Virus record (IMG/VR): IMGVR_UViG_3300035659_000051
Coordinates: 1 to 38,842 of that record
Direction: 5' to 3' (one strand)
Length of the DNA stretch: 38,842 bases
DNA from: a virus
Shown here: piece by piece, positions 244 through 37,878 of the stretch
How positions within the stretch are numbered: the stretch's first letter is position 1
How the letters are laid out: every line of letters begins with the position of its first letter
The notes under the pieces: generated by a model
What the model saw: only the letters and a program-made list of their open reading frames with translations
The model's database searches: none
What the model was told of the DNA's origin: nothing
Program-made: the position numbers and the translations under genes

Positions 244-453
244 ATGAAAAACGCTGACCGAGTTTTGGAATACTTAAAAGCCGGGCATACCTTAACCGCT
301 TTTGACGGATTTACAAAACTTGGTATAGTGTCTGTAAGAGATTACGTTTCCATGTTGCGTCGCTCCGGCGTTAATATCTCGTCGGAGTGGCGATGGAACG
401 CAGACTTCACAAAAAGATTTAAGGAATATACCTTGTCAAAAGAGTCGGTATAG
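244..453 (+). CDS. Small helix-turn-helix protein
   Basis: The product has 69 residues. Residues 5-45 (RVLEYLKAGHTLTAFDGF, then LGIVSVRDYVSMLRRSGVNI) match the small phage helix-turn-helix fold in which a recognition helix precedes a short wing. It probably binds DNA and is a candidate regulator of the adjacent leader-type promoter, whose -35 box lies inside the 3' end of this gene (433-438). The start directly follows the previous stop with GGAGGGAT upstream. The regulatory role is inferred from position only. Confidence 0.75.
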   Translation: MKNADRVLEYLKAGHTLTAFDGFTKLGIVSVRDYVSMLRRSGVNISSEWRWNADFTKRFKEYTLSKESV

Positions 454-461
454 TGTATACT
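433..461 (+). promoter_or_regulatory. Sigma70-type promoter of leader L1
   Basis: TTGTCA (433-438) is separated by 17 bases from TATACT (456-461). The predicted start at about 468 coincides with the first base of the long helix of leader L1. The same TATACT box precedes three other leader RNAs in this genome. Confidence 0.8.
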
Positions 462-467
462 TTAGGT

Positions 468-561
468 AAGCGAACAGGAGAAGGAATTTTTATGAAGTTA
501 ATGCCCCGAAGTGAGACGCAAGAAAATAACCTTTTCTTGTTCGCTTGTCTTGCCGAGGGGC
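468..561 (+). ncRNA. Leader RNA L1: predicted H-type pseudoknot upstream of the replication gene
   Basis: Helix A pairs 468-484 with 530-546 (17 bp, two G-U pairs) and begins at the predicted transcription start. The loop opens with AATTTTTATG. Helix B pairs GCCCC 503-507 with GGGGC 557-561 and GCAAGA 518-523 with TCTTGC 548-553, so the order is A-B-A'-B'. A U-rich tract and an AGAGG ribosome binding site follow, and the gene starts 21 bases after helix B. The total length of 94 nt matches copies L3 (93) and L4 (95). A 32-codon ORF from 492 could also be read through the element, but it is not conserved among copies. Confidence 0.7.
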
Positions 562-582
562 TTCATTTTTATAGAGGTATAA

Positions 583-1293
583 ATGGCTAACCGATTTACT
601 GATAGTCGTAAGTGGGACGATCCGTGGTTTAGGAAACTTCCCTGTAAATACAAATCCTTTTTCATATTCCTTATAGACAAATGTAATCATGCAGGAATAT
701 GGAAAATAGATTTTGAGAGCGCAGAATTTCATATAGGGGAAAAGTTATCTACGGAAGAAGTTATCGGGTTTATGAATGGCCGGATCGTTCAGTTAAAAGA
801 CAAGTGGTTTATCCCTAAATTTATCGAATTTCAGTATCAAGTTTCTATCCAAGACCTTAATCCTTCCAATCGTGTTCATAAGTCGGTTATAGACATCCTT
901 ACAAAAGAAGGGGCTTATAAGGGGCTTATAAGGGGCGTGCAAGGGTGTAAGGACTATGACTATGACAAGGATAAGGATAACGTTAATATCAATAATGAAA
1001 CTGATAAGGATAAAACTGATCATGATAAGGGAACTCGGTGGGAGACCTTCTGGGCCCTATACCCGCGTAAAGTAGGCATGAGTCTCGCGATGGCGGCCTT
1101 CGCCCGACAGGTCAAAACCGATAAGGACTTCAAAGACATAATGACCGCCTTAAAGACCTATCTCGTAAGCGATGAGGTTAAGTCTAAGAAGATAAAGAAC
1201 TGCGATCGATGGATGGAAGATTGGCGCGGATGGCTTGATATGGCTAAGTCGCCCACAAGAGAAATAGATAAATACAAAGTGGAGAAAAAATAA
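583..1293 (+). CDS. Replisome organizer / DnaD-like replication initiation protein
   Basis: The product has 236 residues. The N-terminus (MANRFTDSRKWDDPWFRKLP, then YKSFFIFLIDKCNHAGIWKI) is the winged-helix domain typical of phage replisome-organizer proteins. A charged D/K-rich linker at about 120-150 leads to a C-terminal FWALYPRKVG motif at about 156-165, common in phage replication proteins. It probably binds the origin and helps load the host helicase, since no phage polymerase or helicase gene is visible. AGAGG lies 6 bases upstream. Its transcript begins with leader L1, and its stop overlaps the next start (TAATG). Confidence 0.8.
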   Translation: MANRFTDSRKWDDPWFRKLPCKYKSFFIFLIDKCNHAGIWKIDFESAEFHIGEKLSTEEVIGFMNGRIVQLKDKWFIPKFIEFQYQVSIQDLNPSNRVHKSVIDILTKEGAYKGLIRGVQGCKDYDYDKDKDNVNINNETDKDKTDHDKGTRWETFWALYPRKVGMSLAMAAFARQVKTDKDFKDIMTALKTYLVSDEVKSKKIKNCDRWMEDWRGWLDMAKSPTREIDKYKVEKK

Positions 1294-4989: not shown

Positions 4990-5361
4990 GTGGAAACAGA
5001 AGTAAAAGAAATTAGTATCAATGGGACAACTTATGTTCCAAAGGGTAGTGAAAATGCACCTGCATTAAAACTTAACGGAATGAAATACTGTATCGTTCGC
5101 ACCTATTCGGCAGGTGTATTTGTTGGATATGTCGAAAGTCGTAATGGTCAAGAAGGCGTCATAAGAAATTCGAGAGGGCTCTGGTATTGGGATGGAGCTT
5201 GTGGGTTAAGCCAGTTAGCAGTTGATGGAACTTCAAAGCCTTCTAACTGCAAGTTTACGGTTGAGGTTGACAAGCGAGAACTAACACAGATTATCGAGGT
5301 TATCGAGTGTTCGGAAAAGGCTCGTAAGAACATACAGTCGGTGGCTATATGGAAAACGTAG
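4990..5361 (+). CDS. DUF6948-like phage protein
   Basis: The product has 123 residues. It carries the recognisable phrases MKYCIVRTYSAGVFVGY, RGLWYWDGACGLSQLA and KPSNCKFTVEVDK, ending KNIQSVAIWKT, which match the DUF6948 family widespread in phages (function unknown). The start is GTG at 4990 with GGTAGGA upstream; the nearby ATG at 4988 closes after five codons. As in other phages, a glycine-rich repeat ORF overlaps its end. Confidence 0.8.
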   Translation: METEVKEISINGTTYVPKGSENAPALKLNGMKYCIVRTYSAGVFVGYVESRNGQEGVIRNSRGLWYWDGACGLSQLAVDGTSKPSNCKFTVEVDKRELTQIIEVIECSEKARKNIQSVAIWKT

Positions 5362-5552
5362 CAACTTCTGGCTCTGGCTTTGGCTATGGCTATGGCTATG
5401 GCTCTGGCTCTGGCTATGACGATGGCTCTGGCTATGGCTATGGCTCTGGCTCTGGCTATGACGATGGCTTTGGCTATGGCGATGGCTCTGGCTATGGCTA
5501 TGGCGATGGCTCTGGCTATGGCGATGGCTTTGGCAAGCCAAGTAATTTATAA
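5349..5552 (+). CDS. Glycine/tyrosine/serine repeat protein (truncated form)
   Basis: The product has 67 residues. A short start (MENVATSG) is followed by about 50 residues of GY, GS, GD and GF dipeptides and the end FGKPSNL. Relatives next to DUF6948 genes often continue into a folded C-terminal domain; that domain is missing here. The gene overlaps DUF6948 by 13 bases. Its function is unknown. The other frame (methionine/alanine repeats) is a shadow. Confidence 0.6.
   Translation: MENVATSGSGFGYGYGYGSGSGYDDGSGYGYGSGSGYDDGFGYGDGSGYGYGDGSGYGDGFGKPSNL
5376..5534 (+). repeat. Hexanucleotide coding repeat GGC-N-N-T
   Basis: GGC alternates with TAT, TCT, TTT or GAT, and GAC-GAT occurs in places. 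The first and second bases of the second codon vary while its third base stays T. This is the third locus in the window with fixed wobble bases and variable coding bases. Confidence 0.85.
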
Positions 5553-5581
5553 CTCAAAAAGACGGAGCTGTGGCTTTCCGT
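5552..5581 (+). other. Second ACTCAAAAAGAC repeat with hairpin; gene-free stretch to 5696
   Basis: ACTCAAAAAGAC (5552-5563) is followed by ACGGA (5562-5566) pairing with TCCGT (5577-5581). The stretch from 5582 to 5696 holds no ORF with a ribosome binding site. It may be the remains of the missing C-terminal part of the repeat gene, but I cannot show homology. Confidence 0.4.
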
Positions 5582-5696
5582 GCCGTTGACAAGATTACAG
5601 GACATCAAACCCGTTGAGTCTTCGGATACTTTGCAGGTTCTATGGTTAAGAACTCGAGCCAAATCTGCCAGCTTCGTCTTACTAAAGGGGGGGATA

Positions 5697-5853: not shown

Positions 5854-6072
5854 ATGAAATGTAAAAATTGTGGTGGGGAAAACGAGGAATCACTTAGTAA
5901 TTGCTGTTGGGTAGATTGTGAATGTGGGAAAAAGATATGTGGCAAATGTGGTTCTACTAATATAATACACGATGAAGCAACTAATCCCGATGACGAGGAT
6001 GGTGATGATAAATATTGGTGTTGTTTAGTATGCGGAAATTGTGGTCTTGGTGGTTGTGCGATGTGCGTGTAG
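5854..6072 (+). CDS. Cysteine-rich small protein
   Basis: ATG 5854 lies 9 bases after AAGGA; ATG 5845 abuts that site and is less likely. The product has 72 residues with many CxxC pairs (CKNCGG, CECGKKICGKCG, CCLVCGNCG, CAMC), implying several metal sites. A central acidic patch (DEATNPDDEDGDD) separates them. The function is unknown. Confidence 0.65.
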   Translation: MKCKNCGGENEESLSNCCWVDCECGKKICGKCGSTNIIHDEATNPDDEDGDDKYWCCLVCGNCGLGGCAMCV

Positions 6073-18131: not shown

Positions 18132-18481
18132 TATCTACCTATCAGTGCCGAGGCGATCCCCGGAGTTTCTTCCGGCACTACCACTTTACCTGTCGGCAGG
18201 TTCTTCGCCGGCTTGCCTATATTCAAATTAGCATTCGAGTCCTCTTGTAAAGTAGGCACTGTCGGCCAGTCTATTTTAGCAGGAGCGTCTTTTGAGGCGC
18301 ATTGCCTTCCTGTATATAGTGTAATAGCCGTATTCGCCCCTGCGTGAATATATCCATTCGGGCCCAACACCGTAACATTATCACTTCTTATCCTCATCAT
18401 GTTTGCTGAGGAATATATGCTACAAGAATTTAGAAGCATACACATTGAAATACACATTAAGAAAAACATAATTTTTTTCAT
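18131..18481 (-). CDS. Lipoprotein in the late block
   Basis: The product has 116 residues. The signal sequence (KKIMFFLMCISMCMLLNSC) ends in the lipobox LNSC. The mature part is Pro/Ala/Asn-rich and has no recognised domain. AAAGGAG lies upstream; that region also contains the -35 box of the oppositely directed leader L3 promoter. It may be an outer-spanin-like or exclusion lipoprotein, which is not proven. Confidence 0.65.
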   Translation of the reverse strand: MKKIMFFLMCISMCMLLNSCSIYSSANMMRIRSDNVTVLGPNGYIHAGANTAITLYTGRQCASKDAPAKIDWPTVPTLQEDSNANLNIGKPAKNLPTGKVVVPEETPGIASALIGR

Positions 18482-18509
18482 AGACTTCTTCTCCTTTCTA
18501 TGCTATACT
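18481..18509 (+). promoter_or_regulatory. Promoter of leader L3 (antisense to the late block)
   Basis: TAGACT (18481-18486), a 17-base spacer and TATACT (18504-18509) with TG one base upstream of the -10 (extended -10). The predicted start is at about 18516, within one base of the beginning of helix A of L3. Confidence 0.7.
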
Positions 18510-18514
18510 TAAAT

Positions 18515-18607
18515 TGCTTGAAGGTAACAGATTTTTCATGTCCACTAACTGCCCCTGAGTATGCGTTAGTAACTTAACTGTTACTTTCAAGCACGCAGAA
18601 AAGGGGC
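18515..18607 (+). ncRNA. Leader RNA L3: predicted H-type pseudoknot before HNH gene 1
   Basis: Helix A pairs 18515-18530 with 18578-18593 (16 bp, one G-U). The loop opens with ATTTTTCATGTC and closes with ACTTAA. Helix B pairs GCCCCT 18551-18556 with AGGGGC 18602-18607, and TGCG 18562-18565 with CGCA 18594-18597. A T-rich tract and GGAGG follow, and the gene starts 19 bases after helix B. Helix A has no sequence similarity to that of L1, but its length, place and topology are the same. Confidence 0.7.
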
Positions 18608-18626
18608 TTTTTATTTTGGAGGATAT

Positions 18627-19100
18627 ATGCGAAAAGGTTCTCGCCATACAGAAGAAACAATAAAAAAATTGAGTCTTTCTCACATAGGACTTATGCCTTG
18701 GAATACAGGGAAAAAACTTCATTATACCGTTTGGAATAAAGGTAAAAAAGGAGTCATGCCCACTCCGTGGAATAAAGGAAAACATACGGGTATAAAACCT
18801 TGGCTTGGTAAAAAACGTCCTGATGTTTCTAAAGAAAATCATCATAATTGGAACGGGGGGAAAAGAAATCACACATCGGGATATATTCAAATTCTTAGCC
18901 CAAATCATCCTTTTAAAGATAGCAATGGTTACGTCTTTGAGCACCGCCTTGTGATAGAGAAGCGAATAGGTCGATACCTTAAAAAAACCGAAAGTGTTCA
19001 TCATATCAATGGCATTAAAGACGATAATCGAGATAAAAACCTCCGCCTTTTTAAGAATGAATCTGAGCATCATAAATTTCATTGGAATTTGCAAGGCTAA
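18627..19100 (+). CDS. HNH homing endonuclease with NUMOD3 modules (copy 1)
   Basis: The product has 157 residues. N-terminal basic repeats (RHTEETIKKLSLSHIG; PWNKGKHTGIKPWLGKKRP) are NUMOD3-type DNA-binding modules. The C-terminal half (YVFEHRLVIEKRIGRYL; ESVHHINGIKDDNRDKNL) is an HNH nuclease of the phage free-standing homing type. It probably cuts phage genomes lacking the insertion. It lies on the strand opposite to the late genes and has its own promoter and leader. Its stop overlaps that of the converging gene by 3 bases. Confidence 0.85.
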   Translation: MRKGSRHTEETIKKLSLSHIGLMPWNTGKKLHYTVWNKGKKGVMPTPWNKGKHTGIKPWLGKKRPDVSKENHHNWNGGKRNHTSGYIQILSPNHPFKDSNGYVFEHRLVIEKRIGRYLKKTESVHHINGIKDDNRDKNLRLFKNESEHHKFHWNLQG

Positions 19101-28720: not shown

Positions 28721-29746
28721 TTATTGGACGTTGAGTGCGTCAAGTAGAGCGTCGGCATCTTTCCCAAATTCTCCTGTCTTTTTAGGGACTGTGATAGTTG
28801 CCGCACTGCTCTCTTTTGACAAAGGTCTATTACCCTTTTTCTGCTCTCCACGTTCAATCGCCTTCTTGCCTGACTTTAGACGCTCGATTGTCAAAGTGTG
28901 ATTGATTTCCTTAAAATGCTCCAAAACATCCTGTTGAGTAGCGTTCGGATTCTCGTCCATGAACTTATCGAGATGGGGGGCGATATCTTCTAATGTAAGC
29001 ACGCCTTCTTTCTCTAAAGTCCCTTTGACGGTGTTCATAAATTGAGCCGCTCCGTCTCTCTGGGCGATCTTCGTAGTCTGCTCTTCAATCGGTTTCAGGG
29101 CATTAGGTAAGACTTTCGCCATCCTATCTTTAAAGATGACGTCCGCTATTCTCGCAACGTCGGAAATTACAGCCTTTGTATTCTCATCCATGTTGGCGGT
29201 ATCTATTCCGAGCGTCTTTGCTACAAGCTGAAAATCATCCATGCCTTTCGGCTGAATGTCAAAACCTCTTTCAACCAACGCCTTGTCAATCGCTTCATCC
29301 GTATATCCCTGCGTCTTCATAGCGGCGCGGATATAATCAGGAGAAGAAGTTACCTTATTAAATTCCGCGATACGATTTTTAGTTTCATCGTCAATCGCAG
29401 GCGTTCTCGATTTTTCAAGGAGCTTCTGCCATGCGGGGTCTTTGTGATAACCATGCTGTTTAATATAGGCTTCAACAGCATCCTTGTCATCACCTAAGAT
29501 TTCCGCTATCTTGGCAAGCTTCTCCTCGACCGTTGGGGCTTTATCTACTTCAGATTGAAGATTAGCCTTTTTAGACTGGTCGACCCCAGTATCTTCTTTC
29601 TTTTCGACTACCTCACCGTTTGCGTCTTTAGAGCCTGACGAGGTCTCAAGGGAGTCGAGGAACTTGTCGGCCTCAACATTAAAATCGCCGGCGTTCACCG
29701 CACCCTTCACCACTTCGGTATTAGCGTCTACTTTTACATCTTCCAT
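28721..29746 (-). CDS. Scaffolding-like protein
   Basis: The product has 341 residues. It is acidic and helical, Lys/Asp/Glu-rich at the N-terminus (KKEDTGVDQSKKANLQSEVD) and with a basic-acidic C-terminal part (IERLKSGKKAIERGEQKKGN). Its position between portal and capsid and its composition fit a head scaffolding protein that is removed on maturation. AAAGGAG lies upstream, and a hairpin (29767-29782) sits in its leader. Confidence 0.75.
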   Translation of the reverse strand: MEDVKVDANTEVVKGAVNAGDFNVEADKFLDSLETSSGSKDANGEVVEKKEDTGVDQSKKANLQSEVDKAPTVEEKLAKIAEILGDDKDAVEAYIKQHGYHKDPAWQKLLEKSRTPAIDDETKNRIAEFNKVTSSPDYIRAAMKTQGYTDEAIDKALVERGFDIQPKGMDDFQLVAKTLGIDTANMDENTKAVISDVARIADVIFKDRMAKVLPNALKPIEEQTTKIAQRDGAAQFMNTVKGTLEKEGVLTLEDIAPHLDKFMDENPNATQQDVLEHFKEINHTLTIERLKSGKKAIERGEQKKGNRPLSKESSAATITVPKKTGEFGKDADALLDALNVQ

Positions 29747-29766
29747 TTAATACTCCTTTAGTTTAG

Positions 29767-29782
29767 CCTCGGCGTTCCGAGG
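29767..29782 (-). other. Hairpin upstream of the scaffold gene
   Basis: CCTCGG (29767-29772) pairs with CCGAGG (29777-29782) around a 4-base loop, in the short gap before the scaffold and capsid genes. It may be a processing site that raises downstream expression. There is no U-tract. Confidence 0.5.
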
Positions 29783-29814
29783 ACGAGTGCTTTTGAAATG
29801 GCGGCACTAATCCA

Positions 29815-29979
29815 TTATTTCACAACTTTATAAGCTGGATCTTGTTCATGCGTGCAAAATGGTTTAGAATTATAATTACCCCAGTAGTTTTTAGAGCAAT
29901 CAAAAGATTTTATTTTATTTTCTTTAATAATATATCCCATAGTTGAAATTAACAATAAAACACATATTAAATACCTCAC
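29815..29979 (-). CDS. Small exported or membrane protein (54 aa)
   Basis: GTG 29979 overlaps the preceding stop (GTGA). The product has a hydrophobic N-terminus (VRYLICVLLLISTMGYII) and a mature part with two cysteines (FDCSKNYWGNYNSKPFCTHE), which could form a disulphide after export. The function is unknown. Confidence 0.55.
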   Translation of the reverse strand: MRYLICVLLLISTMGYIIKENKIKSFDCSKNYWGNYNSKPFCTHEQDPAYKVVK

Positions 29980-30153
29980 ATCCACCCCACTTGTTTTAAT
30001 TTCGCAAGTCTATCCTCTAATGCTTTAAGTTCTTCTGAAGCGTAAGGGAGCCCCTTATCTGCCCAATATTTCTTTTCTGCTATCATTGGAAGCAACTCTC
30101 TCAATGTAATATTAGTTACTTCTGTTTTATTGGGGTCATTCTAAATCATTCAT
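29976..30153 (-). pseudogene. Small protein gene interrupted by an apparent +1 frameshift
   Basis: ATG 30153 overlaps the previous stop (ATGA) but closes after MNDLE at a TGA followed by C. Skipping one base (T) resumes an open frame of 54 codons (NDPNKTEVTNITLRELLPMI, then AEKKYWADKGLPYASEE) that has no standard start of its own near its beginning. The frame ends in ATGTGA, overlapping the next gene. Either a one-base indel has broken it, or the UGA-C context allows frameshifting as in prfB. An indel or assembly error is simpler. Confidence 0.55.
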
Positions 30154-30311
30154 CTCTTCACCAATCGCTTCTCCATCTTTGCTAAAATCGTGTAATAGTC
30201 TGGGCGTTCTTTGAGGTGGGCATTTACGATCATCGCCCGCTTCTTCTTATCACTGCCGATAAGGTCTTTGTGTTCCTTTTCGACTTCCATACCTTTGTTA
30301 AACTCGCTCAC
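30150..30311 (-). CDS. Conserved small phage protein (53 aa)
   Basis: GTG 30311 overlaps the previous stop (GTGA). The product (VSEFNKGMEVEKEHKDLI; IVNAHLKERPDYYTILAKM) matches a small phage family found near packaging genes (DUF5661-like resemblance: a basic EHK segment and a HLKExPDYY motif). The function is unknown. Confidence 0.65.
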   Translation of the reverse strand: MSEFNKGMEVEKEHKDLIGSDKKKRAMIVNAHLKERPDYYTILAKMEKRLVKR

Positions 30312-30439
30312 TTCTTAACTTTCCTCTTTGCGACCTTCTCTTTTAGCTTGCTAAAATCGGTATGAGAAGCAAATTCCTTCGCTACCTCCGGCTTCTGCGA
30401 AAATAGAAAACGTTGCTGTGCTTTAGATTTAAACGGCAT
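30308..30439 (-). CDS. Small basic phage protein (MPFKSKAQQR type)
   Basis: The 43-residue product begins MPFKSKAQQRFLFSQKPEVA, a very common phage phrase of unknown function, and ends in a basic tail (VAKRKVKK). The start is contiguous with the previous stop (TAG-ATG), and the stop overlaps the next GTG. It is probably a DNA- or protein-binding minor virion-region protein. Confidence 0.75.
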   Translation of the reverse strand: MPFKSKAQQRFLFSQKPEVAKEFASHTDFSKLKEKVAKRKVKK

Positions 30440-30571
30440 CTAAGTCGCCTTTCCTTTGGAGTATTCCTTATTTTCTGCCTTGCCTAACATCTTGCATTTT
30501 CGCTTTGCTATCTTCTCCTGTAATTCAGTCCCTTCTTTCGCCCCTTTACGCATATACTCCATACTTTTCAT
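30440..30571 (-). CDS. Small basic protein (43 aa)
   Basis: ATG 30571 has AAAGGAG upstream. The product is MKSMEYMRKGAKEGTELQEK with a lysine-rich remainder (AKRKCKMLGKAENKEYSKGK). It is basic and helical. It directly precedes another basic small gene in the packaging-to-scaffold interval. Confidence 0.6.
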   Translation of the reverse strand: MKSMEYMRKGAKEGTELQEKIAKRKCKMLGKAENKEYSKGKAT

Positions 30572-30581
30572 ATAGTCTCCT

Positions 30582-30806
30582 TTAAATTGACATTATCCAA
30601 TGACATTTAGGACATGAAACTATCCCTGACTTCACTCCGATAGGTTCTTTACACCTGTGACAAAGTGTTATACCGGTAGCTCGTGCGGGAGCGGCTGCCT
30701 TAACCTCTTTCCCCGCAATTCTTTTCTCTTTTCCTTTACCAACTCTCTTACCTTCGGGTTCTTTATGTTCGGCTCTTTGAACCCTGCCTTTTCCCATTCT
30801 CGCCAT
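30582..30806 (-). CDS. Basic zinc-ribbon protein overlapping its upstream neighbour
   Basis: The product has 74 residues: a Lys/Arg-rich N-terminal half (GKRVGKGKEKRIAGKEVKAA), then a zinc ribbon (LCHRCKEPIG, IVSCPKCHW). The first 139 bases overlap the gene at 30668-30988 in another frame, which is long. The true start may be later, or a frameshift may once have joined the two frames. The zinc ribbon itself is convincing. Confidence 0.55.
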   Translation of the reverse strand: MARMGKGRVQRAEHKEPEGKRVGKGKEKRIAGKEVKAAAPARATGITLCHRCKEPIGVKSGIVSCPKCHWIMSI

Positions 30807-30988
30807 GTCGTTATCTCCCTATGTGTTTTTTCATCTATAAAGTTCTGACCTATGCCAAAACCGTCTCTAGTGCCCGTAACCGATGGGAAGCCCTCACCCT
30901 TTAGATCCCCGCCGCAAGGGCATACCATTGACAAATAGCTGTCAGGGGCTACTCTACCGCAACTGAGGCACTGATATGTTATTTCCAC
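30668..30988 (-). CDS. Zinc-ribbon small protein after the portal gene
   Basis: The product has 106 residues. The N-terminal ribbon (YQCLSCGRVAPDS; MVCPCGGDL) is followed by FPSVTGTRDGFGIGQNFIDE and TWREWEKAGFKEP, as in small phage proteins downstream of portals, and a basic helical end. It overlaps the portal end by 35 bases. The role is unknown. Confidence 0.65.
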   Translation of the reverse strand: MEITYQCLSCGRVAPDSYLSMVCPCGGDLKGEGFPSVTGTRDGFGIGQNFIDEKTHREITTWREWEKAGFKEPNIKNPKVRELVKEKRKELRGKRLRQPLPHELPV

Positions 30989-32873
30989 TTGCCCCCGCTA
31001 AGTGTTGCTTGATTAAAGGGTCGTTCTTAATTCTCTCTTGAAGCCGAGGATCAGTCTTAACCCTGTTAATTATCTCTGGCGGTAGCTGATCAAGCGGCCC
31101 ACCCTGCCCCATAGGCGGAACTCCCATCTGCTGTAAATCTACAATAAAAGTATCGGGGTTCTGCCCGAACTGAGCAACTGCTTTCTTTAATTCATCAATG
31201 CTTAATGTTTTACCCTGTGTCATTAAGAACGGCTGTAAAATATTTATACACCATGTCAAGAAGTCAACCGTCTCCTTCTTCTTCTGCTCCCTATTGGGGC
31301 GCATGGCTGAGAGAATGTCTATGTCTAGTTCATAATCCCCTGTCAATATGTCTGTAAGAGGATTAAGTATCAACGGTTGACCATTGATAGGATTAAGAAC
31401 CTTCTGGGGTATATACCACTGCGGCATCTGCCCGCCCGTGACCTTAAAAAAGTATTCCCCGTCCCAGAAATTGATCACTATATCCTTGAGGCATTCTATC
31501 TGCTCTTTCATCACCAAACGTAGCCCCTCTTGGACATCAGAACTTGATTGAAGCATTCCCATCTCTTGGATATTGACCTCAGTAGCGAAGTTAGCATTAG
31601 ATATGCCTGATAACTTACTCTGTGAGACATTCCACAATTTCTGTTTCTGGTCTGTAAAAAGCTGCAGCATCTCTTTATTCTCTCTCGATACTATTGAAGG
31701 GGATATAGGTTGAATAGCAATGGCGGGCTGACCGTCTACCCTCACCAAGTCATTAACCATCGCACTCTTCAACGCTTCTTCGCCGTCTTCCTTGACCCTG
31801 TTCTTATCTATGCCATATTTTGGCATCGTTCTCTCGGCGCACTCCATCAAGAACTTGACGTAGTGGTTCATCTCATCCTGCATCTTCTTGTTTATCTGTG
31901 CAAAGGAGATTGGATAGAGGACTCCGTATTTATGAAGTGTGCCTATCTTCATGTTGAAGCCGTTGGTGATATAGGGCCGCTTCCAGCAGTCTATCTCTTC
32001 TGTCGGCGACTGCTTACTCACCACTATATTCCAATACTCGTTATTCTTTTTCTTGATTTGGAACTCATAGAGTAGGACTTTACGCTTGTAGTCTTGCTGG
32101 TCCAATCTCTCAAAGTCCTGTATGTTGTCAGTCGCCCTGACTTTGTCTTTAAACTTAGGATACCTTGCGTTGAACTCTGACTGTGAAAGCTCTATGCGCT
32201 TTAAATTATAACGCCTCTCTCGTAAAACGTTGGCTCTATGGTCTAAAGGCACGTTGCATGGATTCCAACGCCTGATGTAGGTCTTCTCGTTAGTAGAGTA
32301 TGCCTCTTCTTTGCGTGGGAACTCTGCCTCTATCTTATTCTCTGTCTCGTCATTACCACCGAGTATCAGATCTTTCGCCTTCTGTAATAGCGGTCTATTA
32401 TCTTGCTCGTTCTTAGTCATTTGCTGTTCATCTGGCAAGCCCTCGACCGCTTGAGCCTCGTCTATAATGTGGTCAACCTCGACAGCGCAATAGCCGGCAA
32501 AGAGCATGTCAAACAGTGCTACTCTATTCTCAATGAGGGCATCCGTATGCTTAAAGCCATAATCAAGTGCCGACTTCATAAGGTTCTCGTTACTCTCGGC
32601 ATCTGGCTTAGTAGCCTGGCAGACTATGTCAGGATACTTATATATCAGCTCTGAAATCTTAGCGTTGGTATTGGGAAAGTATTCATTTATGATGGCGTAG
32701 GACTCCGCTGTGGTAACGAATGGACTTAGTGCGTTAATCTTTTCAACACCCTCGTAATACAGTAGAAGAAATGGATATGAGTTTCTTTTAATGAGGTCGA
32801 TTTTTTGGCGGTCTTCGCATTTTTTCGCCTCATCAAGCCAAAATTTTACCTCTGACATATTAAGTTTTCCCAC
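30954..32873 (-). CDS. Portal protein
   Basis: The product has 639 residues, the size of podovirus-type portals. The start is GTG 32873 with GGAGGAG upstream. Its position after TerL, and segments such as NENLMKSALDYGFKHTDALI, YGVLYPISFAQINKKMQDEM, QKQKLWNVSQSKLSGISNAN and the Gln/Pro-rich end, support a dodecameric head-tail connector through which DNA is packaged. It acts at one capsid vertex with TerL and the scaffold. Confidence 0.85.
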   Translation of the reverse strand: MGKLNMSEVKFWLDEAKKCEDRQKIDLIKRNSYPFLLLYYEGVEKINALSPFVTTAESYAIINEYFPNTNAKISELIYKYPDIVCQATKPDAESNENLMKSALDYGFKHTDALIENRVALFDMLFAGYCAVEVDHIIDEAQAVEGLPDEQQMTKNEQDNRPLLQKAKDLILGGNDETENKIEAEFPRKEEAYSTNEKTYIRRWNPCNVPLDHRANVLRERRYNLKRIELSQSEFNARYPKFKDKVRATDNIQDFERLDQQDYKRKVLLYEFQIKKKNNEYWNIVVSKQSPTEEIDCWKRPYITNGFNMKIGTLHKYGVLYPISFAQINKKMQDEMNHYVKFLMECAERTMPKYGIDKNRVKEDGEEALKSAMVNDLVRVDGQPAIAIQPISPSIVSRENKEMLQLFTDQKQKLWNVSQSKLSGISNANFATEVNIQEMGMLQSSSDVQEGLRLVMKEQIECLKDIVINFWDGEYFFKVTGGQMPQWYIPQKVLNPINGQPLILNPLTDILTGDYELDIDILSAMRPNREQKKKETVDFLTWCINILQPFLMTQGKTLSIDELKKAVAQFGQNPDTFIVDLQQMGVPPMGQGGPLDQLPPEIINRVKTDPRLQERIKNDPLIKQHLAGASGNNISVPQLR

Positions 32874-35449: not shown

Positions 35450-35574
35450 ATGAATACAAAGACCCTGCAAAGGAAAGAAATGGAAGCGAATTTTTTATGT
35501 CAACTTTCGCCGCAGGAAAAGGTAGAAGGGCTTTACCGCTCGGCCTCTTGCAGGGCCTATCTGATTACTGCGGT
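35450..35574 (+). ncRNA. Leader RNA L2: divergent member of the pseudoknot leader family
   Basis: Helix A pairs 35463-35473 with 35544-35555 (11 bp with one bulge). ATTTTTTATGTC follows at 35490. Helix B pairs GCCGCAG 35509-35515 with CTGCGGT 35568-35574 and AGGTAG 35520-35525 with CTATCT 35557-35562. GATTTTATTT follows. The topology is A-B-A'-B' as in L1, L3 and L4, but the element is longer, helix A starts about 13 nt after the predicted start, and the gene reads through it instead of starting after it. Confidence 0.5.
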
Positions 35575-35932
35575 GATTTTATTTATATCGAGTGTTTGTC
35601 ATGCCCAGGTATTGACCGCTTCCTATTATAGTGTCGCGAGTTTAAAGGCTGAAGGCACTTACAAATACTCAAAAGGAGTGATGGCAAATGGAAAACTTTT
35701 CAAAGATACTTCAATGGTTTGTGCCTCAAACGATTATAGGTTGGGCGATATCCTTCGCATTGTGGATTTGGACAGTTCCAAAAGTATACAGGTGGTTGTC
35801 TCGGATAGAACAGCGAAAAGATTTAAAGGAAAAAGAATCGACCTCAGTAAAGGAGCTATGTTTGCTCTTGGTGGTCAACGGGCACTTGATAAAGGCTTAA
35901 TCAAAGTGAGGGTAGAAAAATGGGGTATATAA
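35480..35932 (+). CDS. RlpA-like double-psi beta-barrel protein
   Basis: The product has about 150 residues from ATG 35480 (AAAGGAAAG upstream); an ATG at the predicted transcription start (35450) would add 10. A signal segment (LITAVILFISSVCHAQ) precedes the barrel: ASYYSVASLKAEGTYKYSKG, then VVVSDRTAKRFKGKRIDLSK, with the DR and IDLS phrases of RlpA. RlpA-type enzymes cleave naked peptidoglycan glycan strands. It could serve in lysis, as no lysozyme is recognised elsewhere. Its coding region contains leader L2, giving an unusually long N-terminus before the signal. Confidence 0.75.
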   Translation: MEANFLCQLSPQEKVEGLYRSASCRAYLITAVILFISSVCHAQVLTASYYSVASLKAEGTYKYSKGVMANGKLFKDTSMVCASNDYRLGDILRIVDLDSSKSIQVVVSDRTAKRFKGKRIDLSKGAMFALGGQRALDKGLIKVRVEKWGI

Positions 35933-36287: not shown

Positions 36288-36493
36288 TGTATATGGACGT
36301 GGCTAAGATAACCGATCCAGTAACATGGATTATATCGCATGATAAATCGGATACTCATGTATTCACTATCAGGGCGAAGATAGGCGATTGGACACAACTT
36401 ACGTTGGCTCTTACGGAAAAAGAGGCTATTTCCTTAGTAGAACAACTTGGGTTTGCAATACAAGATAAGGATGTGAATAATGGCAAAGTTTAA
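36287..36493 (+). CDS. Hypothetical protein (68 aa) before the nuclease
   Basis: The product has 68 residues, beta-rich (DPVTWIISHDKSDTHVFTIR), with a C-terminal helix (KEAISLVEQLGFAIQDKD). GGAGG lies upstream. It overlaps the nuclease gene by 14 bases, suggesting co-expression with recombination functions. No family is recognised. Confidence 0.6.
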   Translation: MYMDVAKITDPVTWIISHDKSDTHVFTIRAKIGDWTQLTLALTEKEAISLVEQLGFAIQDKDVNNGKV

Positions 36494-37127
36494 GGCACAT
36501 CAGAAGTATCATACAAAGGACGGCATCCTTGTGCCGGGGGTAACCACAGTCATAGGGGTTTTAGCAAAACCCGCACTCGTCGGGTGGGCTAATAAATTGG
36601 GTTTACAGGGTGTTGAGGTTGGAAAATATGTTGACTCGTTAGCCTCCGTAGGAACGCTCTGTCATAACATAGTAGAGTGCTACCTTACGAAAAAGGAAGT
36701 TGATTTCTCGGACTACACGCCTAATCAAAGGACGTTAGCCGAAGGCGCGGCGAAGAAGTTTTTTGACTGGGAAAAGAAGAATAAGTTTGTGTTTCTAAAA
36801 TCCGAACTTCAGCTTGTAAGTGAGAAGCATTTCTTCGGCGGAACGTGTGATATATACTGTGAGTTAGATGATAAGAAAACACTCATAGATATAAAGACCT
36901 CGAAGGCGTGCTACGGAGAACACTTCACGCAGGTAGCGGCGTATAAGATACTGCTTGAGGAGAATGGTTATCCCGTTGAAGATGCGAAGATACTAAGGAT
37001 CGGCCGTGAGGAAGCCGAGGGGTTTGATGTTAAAGATATACCGATGATAGATGTCCACGCTGAAAAGTTTTTAGCGTGTTTAAGAATTTTACAGATAGAC
37101 AATAAACTAAGGGAGAAAAAATCATAA
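36480..37127 (+). CDS. PD-(D/E)XK exonuclease (RecB/Cas4-like)
   Basis: The product has 215 residues. The nuclease core is GGTCDIYCELDDKKTLIDIK with TSK following: the D in CDIY, then D-I-K of the D-(D/E)XK motif, and AAYKILLEENG as the helix QxxxY-like motif. CHNIVECYL near residue 60 supplies an upstream acidic site. It probably resects phage DNA ends for recombination or repair. The gene at 37856, separated by the HNH cassette, is its probable functional partner. Confidence 0.85.
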   Translation: MAKFKAHQKYHTKDGILVPGVTTVIGVLAKPALVGWANKLGLQGVEVGKYVDSLASVGTLCHNIVECYLTKKEVDFSDYTPNQRTLAEGAAKKFFDWEKKNKFVFLKSELQLVSEKHFFGGTCDIYCELDDKKTLIDIKTSKACYGEHFTQVAAYKILLEENGYPVEDAKILRIGREEAEGFDVKDIPMIDVHAEKFLACLRILQIDNKLREKKS

Positions 37128-37130
37128 ATG

Positions 37131-37159
37131 TTGCATAATTCTTCAATATATGATATACT
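37131..37159 (+). promoter_or_regulatory. Promoter of leader L4
   Basis: TTGCAT (37131-37136), a 17-base spacer and TATACT (37154-37159), with TG one base upstream of the -10 (extended -10). The predicted start, 37166, is the first base of helix A. Confidence 0.8.
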
Positions 37160-37165
37160 AAAGTC

Positions 37166-37260
37166 GCATAGAGAGAGGCGGATTTTGTATGTCTAAACCA
37201 ATGGCACTCGATGGGTTGAAGGGACTTAACCGTTCTTTCTCTATGCACTCGTCGGGTGCT
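37166..37260 (+). ncRNA. Leader RNA L4: predicted H-type pseudoknot before HNH gene 2
   Basis: Helix A pairs 37166-37181 with 37230-37246 (16 bp, one bulge, two G-U). The loop opens with ATTTTGTATGTC and ends in ACTTAA. Helix B pairs 37203-37216 with 37247-37260 (14 continuous bp, four G-U) directly abutting A', allowing coaxial stacking. ATTTTATT and GGAGG follow, and the gene starts 18 bases after helix B. The total is 95 nt. Helix B here has no sequence likeness to the GCCCC/GGGGC of L1 and L3, so the structure is kept by compensating changes. Confidence 0.75.
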
Positions 37261-37278: not shown

Positions 37279-37878
37279 ATGCCTAAAGGATTGTATAAGA
37301 GAACGGAAGAAATAAAAAATAAGATACGAAAATCTTTAATAGGTAGAAAACATACAGAAGAAACAAAAAGAAAAATGAGCACTTCTCGTATGGGGCATCC
37401 CACATCTAAAGAAACACGCATAAAAATTGGATTAGCACATAAAGGAAAAATAGTATCACGTGAGGCAAGAAAAAAATTAAGTATTGCTCATATAGGACAA
37501 GTATCGGGAATGAAAGGCAAAAAACATTCGTTGGCAACACGACTAAAACTTCATATTGCAACATCATCAAAACGAGGTAATAAAGCAAGTGGATGGAAAG
37601 GGGGATTAACTAAAAAAGATAAGTTAATAAGAAATAGTAAAGAATATGCAGACTGGAGAATGAAAGTTTTTGTTAGAGATAATTTTACTTGTGTTGAGTG
37701 TAGAAAAATTGGTTGTTATTTAGAAGCACATCATATAAAAAGTTTTGCTGATTATCCGGAGTTTAGATTTGAAATAAGCAATGGCGTTTCCTTATGTAAG
37801 GATTGCCATGAAAAAACGGATAATTATTCATGGAAAAATAGAAAAGGAGGTAATTGTGCGACCACCAAAAAGGGATAA
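37279..37878 (+). CDS. HNH homing endonuclease with NUMOD3 modules (copy 2)
   Basis: The product has 199 residues. The N-terminal two-thirds are repeated NUMOD3-like basic modules (RKHTEETKRKMSTSRMG; THREE such units with SKETRIKIGLAHKG). The C-terminal HNH domain reads VFVRDNFTCVECRKIG, then LEAHHIKSFADYPEF and VSLCKDCHEK, with the zinc cysteines and catalytic histidines. It is a free-standing homing endonuclease with its own promoter and leader. Its last 23 bases overlap the next gene and supply that gene's ribosome binding site. Confidence 0.9.
   Translation: MPKGLYKRTEEIKNKIRKSLIGRKHTEETKRKMSTSRMGHPTSKETRIKIGLAHKGKIVSREARKKLSIAHIGQVSGMKGKKHSLATRLKLHIATSSKRGNKASGWKGGLTKKDKLIRNSKEYADWRMKVFVRDNFTCVECRKIGCYLEAHHIKSFADYPEFRFEISNGVSLCKDCHEKTDNYSWKNRKGGNCATTKKG

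Follow-up and report, generated by a model that had tools for sequence, protein, structure and literature searches.

The comparisons reported here show an apparently undescribed family of RNAs which, as predicted from sequence, act in cis as the 5' leaders of phage genes, share a pseudoknot layout and are anchored to a promoter. Pattern scans and a covariance model applied to IMG/VR yielded at least 28 copies in at least 18 phage contigs, with one layout throughout; these numbers are lower bounds, and the copies counted were annotated segment by segment. We are close to certain that this is a real, apparently undescribed RNA family with the structure given below; with strong covariation, a predicted 5' end that does not vary and unpaired sequences that are conserved, it is well enough defined to be testable.

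The leader in the window and in related phages

The window comprises one complete IMG/VR virus record (38,842 bases), from a phage that encodes a P22-like portal and a terminase; megablast of its first 25 kb against isolated phages gave no match. The initial annotation had placed four plus-strand copies in it, and by direct reading the pseudoknot leader is present at three of them, 468, 18515 and 37166 (w1, w3 and w4; Table 1), each with a sigma-70-like promoter, an interleaved helix B and a helix A that begins 6 nt past TATACT, i.e. at the predicted transcription start as had been claimed. Some of the dimensions shift slightly: helix A, given as 16-17 bp, has 17 bp at 468 and 16 with one bulge at 37166, while 18515 has 15, or 16; the spans are 94, 92 and 94 nt rather than 94, 93 and 95; and the start codon follows B' by 21, 19 and 19 nt rather than 21, 19 and 18. 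No unpaired base separates A' from B' in these copies, the register of w4 having been placed by hand from homology. When the same helix search was run across the window, helix A scored 46 at 468 (no background position as high), 37 at 18515 (0.25% of window background positions as high) and 35 at 37166 (0.5%).

The fourth claimed copy (35450..35589, plus strand) was rejected, as it is mostly coding sequence and helix A is absent: the arm due to end at AUUUUUU scores 16 against a background mean of 15.7, the covariance model matches only partially (20.8 bits, E 0.04), and the site falls within a reading frame having its own Shine-Dalgarno, an ATG at 35480 (MEANFLCQLS...) and a lytic-transglycolase-like domain downstream. 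The protein encoded at 35480-35932 is lytic-transglycolase-like (DPBB), with a hydrophobic segment near its start and a TATACT promoter-like sequence upstream, and gave rise to the mistaken fourth copy. Elsewhere in the window, reading frames of strongly low complexity, made up largely of short units in tandem, lie at 5349-5589 and 36480-37127 (GGCTATGGCTCT-like and CCCCTGCGGCGG-like on the minus strand).

Table 1. Predicted leader copies in the window and the genes that follow them
Feature	Position	Strand	Remarks
w1 sigma-70 promoter	433..461	+	TTGTCA 433-438, 17 nt spacer, TATACT 456-461
w1 helix A 5' arm	468..484	+	AAGCGAACAGGAGAAGG; begins 6 nt past -10 box; covariation
w1 loop 1	485..502	+	AATTTTTATGAAGTTAAT
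w1 helix B 5' arm	503..517	+	GCCCC / internal loop GAAG / TGAGAC
w1 loop 3	518..529	+	GCAAGAAAATAA
w1 helix A 3' arm	530..546	+	17 bp with 468-484
w1 helix B 3' arm	547..561	+	no gap to A'; then U-rich TTCATTTTTAT
Gene after w1	583..1293	+	replication-initiation-like protein; PHROG 270, E 3e-8
w3 promoter	18481..18509	+	TAGACT-17-TATACT
w3 pseudoknot	18516..18607	+	107.5 bits, in training set
w3 helix A	18516-18530 / 18578-18592	+	15 bp (16 counting one more U-A)
w3 loop 1	18531-18550	+	
w3 loop 3	18567-18577	+	
w3 helix B	18551-18566 / 18593-18607	+	GAGTA 18557-18561 opposite GAAA 18598-18601
w3 U-rich stretch and Shine-Dalgarno	18608..18622	+	TTTTTATTTT; GGAGG
Gene after w3	18627..19100	+	HNH_3/NUMOD3 homing endonuclease
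w4 promoter	37131..37159	+	TTGCAT-17-TATACT
w4 pseudoknot	37166..37259	+	83.5 bits, in training set
w4 helix A	37166-37181 / 37230-37246	+	16 bp, one-base bulge
w4 loop 1	37182-37203	+	
w4 loop 3	37217-37229	+	
w4 helix B	37204-37216 / 37247-37259	+	
Gene after w4	37279..37878	+	NUMOD3/HNH homing endonuclease

The order of segments is sigma-70 promoter, A, U-rich loop 1, B, loop 3, A', B', U-rich stretch, Shine-Dalgarno and start codon, with promoter spacing, arm lengths and start-codon distance near-constant across copies. The -10 box lies 5-8 nt from helix A in all 28 copies and 16-18 nt from the -35 box; helix A has 14-17 bp, the two parts of helix B, B1 and B2, have 5-8 and 3-6 bp, and loops 1 and 3 have 16-22 and 10-13 nt, giving a total span of 88-98 nt (about 94). 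The Shine-Dalgarno is found 3' of B' and of the U-stretch, outside every conserved helix. Among the unpaired segments, loop 1 is U-rich, typically (W)UUUUUAUGUCYAAA, loop 3 terminates near UUAA, and helix B in most copies contains an internal loop of GAGUA, CGUA or AGUA type opposite GAAA. GUA opposite GAA between two helices, by which loop E / bulged-G motifs are recognised at the sequence level, occurs in 24 of the 28 copies and is absent or changed in w1, w4, G007a and G013; within the window the AGUA/CGUA-GAAA internal loop is seen only at 18515, with ordinary pairs in its place in w4.

The element had been called an H-type pseudoknot, with the U-rich loop placed in the major groove of helix B and an A-rich loop near helix A, and this is supported in part. 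The helices do interleave as A-B-A'-B', but the classic layout, in which the 5' arm of B lies 0-1 nt from A', does not apply since A' adjoins B': B is separated from A' by 10-13 nt, and A' from B' by nothing in 25 of 28 copies and by 1 nt in the other three. Helix B proved to be longer than claimed, reaching A', and because it continues up to A' the two helices can stack end to end; the U-rich loop would then need to span both, as A' adjoins B'. Based on a length estimate from A-form geometry, loop 1 could span a straight A+B stack of ~30 bp, and loop 3 could span A, only if extended.

Two relatives of the window phage have replication-region leaders (L060, about 5870-5990; L062, 5478-5590) that keep the A-B-A'-B' layout and the start position, although loop 1 is A-rich, loop 3 is longer and B is a plain helix; these variants were left out of the 28. 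Judging from them, the layout may persist after the loop sequences have changed, and they perhaps represent an older or sister class. In L062 the leader precedes an HTH_39 gene that is itself 5' of the replication gene, in contrast to the window, where an HTH_39 winged-helix gene (244-453) lies immediately 5' of w1.

Searches, covariation and leader exchange

Relatives of the gene after site 468 led to related phages with the same architecture, and these, with the window copies, gave a loop 3 consensus, CUUAACNGUU. Clear copies came from IMG/VR scans that used loops 1 and 3 together at first and, later, loop 1 by itself or combined with a promoter. A covariance model (R1; helix A plus consensus, 16 training sequences) then picked up, at 64-86 bits, additional copies on the same contigs that had played no part in its training. 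Since additional homologues do carry compensatory pairs, the claim of the initial annotation withstands the check on homologues that it had set for itself. Other searches were discarded. The strict pattern TATACT + ATTTTNNATGTC + GGNGC matched IMG/VR 54 times, by chance, with no match having the helices; an un-gapped descriptor scan missed known copies; and a gapped one returned many low-complexity and chance matches, with shuffles scoring alike. Descriptor scans being unreliable, we trust only the motif-anchored searches and the covariance model. BLAST of one leader against isolated phages and plasmids gave chance matches only, and the last IMG/VR scan added no copies, so the family looks rare in IMG/VR.

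The claim that the element is undescribed held up against Rfam 15, in which the window had no match at E<=1 (glutamine, SAM, preQ1 and fluoride riboswitches included), seven homologue loci had none at E<=2, and single leaders gave chance miRNA/lncRNA matches only, at E>1. No published description was found in the literature covered, which excluded most subscription papers and preprints.

The strong covariation that the initial annotation saw in helix A is borne out by the alignment: both sides change in 14 of its 16 pairs, the covariation is 0.774 vs. 0.283 +/- 0.030 in shuffled controls (0 of 500 as high) and at most 0.254 in slid versions, and RNAalifold unaided returns the same 16 pairs. 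The two helices are interleaved, with covariation, as befits an A-B-A'-B' pseudoknot. Because the arms of B were picked for best pairing, its raw pairing percentage is inflated; the control for this inflation was 280 re-optimised chimeras, each built from the 5' part of one copy and the 3' part of a different one, which score 21 on average (sd 11) in whole-structure optimisation, compared to 49-65.5 for natural copies. We also considered an inverted repeat acting at the DNA level. Among non-Watson-Crick cells in helix A, 40 of 50 (80%) are G-U, 36 of them with G on the 5' side; this excess favors selection on the plus-strand RNA, and together with the strand bias it led us to reject a DNA-level repeat.

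As judged by Pfam, PHROGs and alignment, 24 of the 26 readable downstream genes encode HNH-type endonucleases, mostly NUMOD3/HNH_3 homing endonucleases, and two encode replication initiators, these following the leaders at site 468 and in G007c. Why one leader should serve both a mobile nuclease and a replication initiator is a question this raises. One more copy, in G010, precedes an apparent truncated endonuclease remnant; the leader there (L102/L230) is intact, and the viral contig has been binned into the Omnitrophota genome QNCD01000013.1. Omnitrophota as a host group was rejected, the single match among 384 genomes being this same viral contig binned into a MAG. The element-bearing phages have few genes in common with the window and carry up to four copies each; G008 packs three leaders and the endonuclease genes they accompany into 2.2 kb (29038-31196, L277), with one of the three on the opposite strand. 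At 19 loci reached through relatives of the 37279 endonuclease, no copy was found at the model threshold, so most of these relatives have no leader.

Comparison of leaders with their surroundings shows, at the sequence level, exchange among homing-endonuclease genes of a unit that reaches roughly from the -10 box to the U-rich stretch. In the closest pairs among the matches listed, the leaders are 92% and 87% identical, whereas identity in their flanks, 120 nt on the upstream side and 220 nt on the downstream side, is 41-48%, near background, and picks up only on approaching the -10 box and the U-stretch. The two endonucleases of the first pair are themselves 41% identical. Leaders nearly identical between flanks near background point to an exchangeable module, and since helix A is otherwise free to vary, the exchange between different endonuclease genes was probably recent. 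An expression module can thus be common to homing-endonuclease genes of uncultured phages and yet move apart from their coding sequences.

Possible modes of action

Our tentative preference, short of a firm conclusion, is that the last helix and the U-stretch may form a terminator or pause built into the pseudoknot. As in intrinsic terminators, a G+C-rich helix (B1, 67% G+C) directly adjoins a U-tract: T occurs at frequencies of 0.93, 0.86 and 0.75 at the first three positions after B', the T fraction over the 8 nt after B' is 0.77 vs. 0.27 before the Shine-Dalgarno of 294 other genes, and the median T-run score is about 3.7, with the 99th percentile of the window at 3.2. Intrinsic terminators have a short hairpin loop (3-8 nt), in contrast to the apparent loop of some 28 nt in B, half of which is paired in helix A, and a standard terminator scan left the leader unflagged. 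An A often interrupts the U-stretch at positions 4-6, and a few copies, w1 among them, have a weak one. At w1, which precedes the replication gene of an early operon, strong termination would come at a cost unless it were leaky or conditional. By eye, no competing antiterminator pairing was found. The conserved unpaired bases and the internal loop exceed what a plain terminator needs.

The most likely effect of the leader, we infer, is to limit expression. We postulate that the RNA folds during synthesis: helix A would form first, leaving the 5' end paired, and helix B would follow at the RNA exit channel beside the U-stretch, creating a terminator or pause. The gene would then be reached by no more than a fraction of the transcripts, or only by those synthesised in suitable circumstances (a bound factor or ligand, a modified polymerase or a following ribosome being candidates). 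In this way a mobile nuclease that may be harmful would be expressed at a low level or at particular times. A shade more tentative is the combined picture of a transcription-start-anchored pseudoknot, with its last helix as terminator or pause, exchanged as a module among homing-endonuclease genes in unrelated phages and occasionally captured by replication genes.

Among phage homing-endonuclease genes of the T4 type, I-TevI, segB and mobE are kept in check by hairpins masking the ribosome site, and seg43(25) has a stable predicted hairpin just 5' of a free ribosome site (PMC2988022). Both cases resemble ours in placing structured RNA just 5' of such genes, linked to promoter choice, and the seg43(25) hairpin is similar in place to the pseudoknot leader and different in structure. 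However, most T4-type hairpins occlude the ribosome site, and it takes a longer transcript for them to form; the leader described here is a conserved pseudoknot that begins where the gene's own transcription is predicted to start, keeps the Shine-Dalgarno clear of all conserved helices, and recurs across unrelated phages with conserved loops. A functional analogy, and only that, is the put RNA of HK022, which suppresses pausing and termination on early phage genes (PMC9378689): it too is a structured phage RNA near the transcript start and the leader, like it, could act on polymerase itself, but mostly single short genes follow our leader, which itself ends in a terminator-like stretch.

The main rival, which we rate as rather unlikely, is a constitutive leader without any switch that protects the mRNA and helps translation. 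The first nucleotide, paired and stackable between A and B, would be hidden from 5'-end-dependent decay, while the knot and the U-rich stretch, which stop 17-22 nt short of the start codon, would present an open U-rich ribosome site. This would fit 1) the start position, for which it accounts well, every copy having A begin at the predicted +1, together with a gapless A'-B' junction in 25 of 28; 2) the near-constant distance to the start codon; 3) a U-rich stretch immediately 5' of the Shine-Dalgarno; and 4) the U-richness kept in G001b and L313, where the Shine-Dalgarno is poor. On the other hand, a simple 5' hairpin would suffice, and the conservation of AUGUCYAAA, UUAA and AGUA/GAAA, as well as a G+C-rich B1 abutting U's, is left unexplained. 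Under either the terminator or the protective reading, the conserved unpaired bases suggest a bound partner.

It is improbable, in our judgment, that the leader is a riboswitch-like sensor of a ligand or protein, with the pseudoknot as aptamer and B plus the U-stretch as expression platform. A conserved unpaired core within a compact fold would suit such a role: H-type pseudoknots with groove triples make the ligand sites of the SAM-II/V, preQ1 and guanidine-III riboswitches, the glutamine-I riboswitch has a loop E motif (PMC6698751), and the fluoride riboswitch couples a pseudoknot aptamer to a terminator (PMC11077080). Glutamine-II/downstream-peptide, SAM-II, preQ1 and fluoride RNAs are likewise compact pseudoknots with conserved unpaired bases, some of them using terminators, and we draw on pseudoknot riboswitches as functional analogies only. 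Our leader differs in having no covariance-model match to them, longer helices (about 16 and 14 bp), A' adjoining B', and helix A at the predicted +1; the genes downstream are for endonucleases and replication proteins, with no metabolic pathway, and no alternative fold was seen.

A poorer prospect still, which we rejected as neither AUG nor frame is conserved, is leader-peptide attenuation, in which a ribosome initiating at the loop 1 AUG (MSK...) would open B and prevent termination. That AUG is present in 26 of 28 copies, following a purine-rich stretch, but it is replaced by AUA or AUUG in G005b and G001b and missing from L060 and L062, frames and stops vary, the peptides differ, and the purine stretch is paired in A. 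Very improbable is a trans-acting RNA partner of the downstream protein (an RNA guide or a type III antitoxin-like RNA), to which the defined predicted 5' end, terminator-like 3' end and position directly 5' of a nuclease gene might point: this RNA is found before replication initiators as well as before several unrelated HNH types, the downstream proteins are small (104-311 aa), helix A is self-paired, leaving no guide, leaders swap between diverged proteins, and in place of the tandem pseudoknot repeats before a ToxN-like RNase that mark type III toxin-antitoxin systems there is a single unit before HNH or replication proteins.
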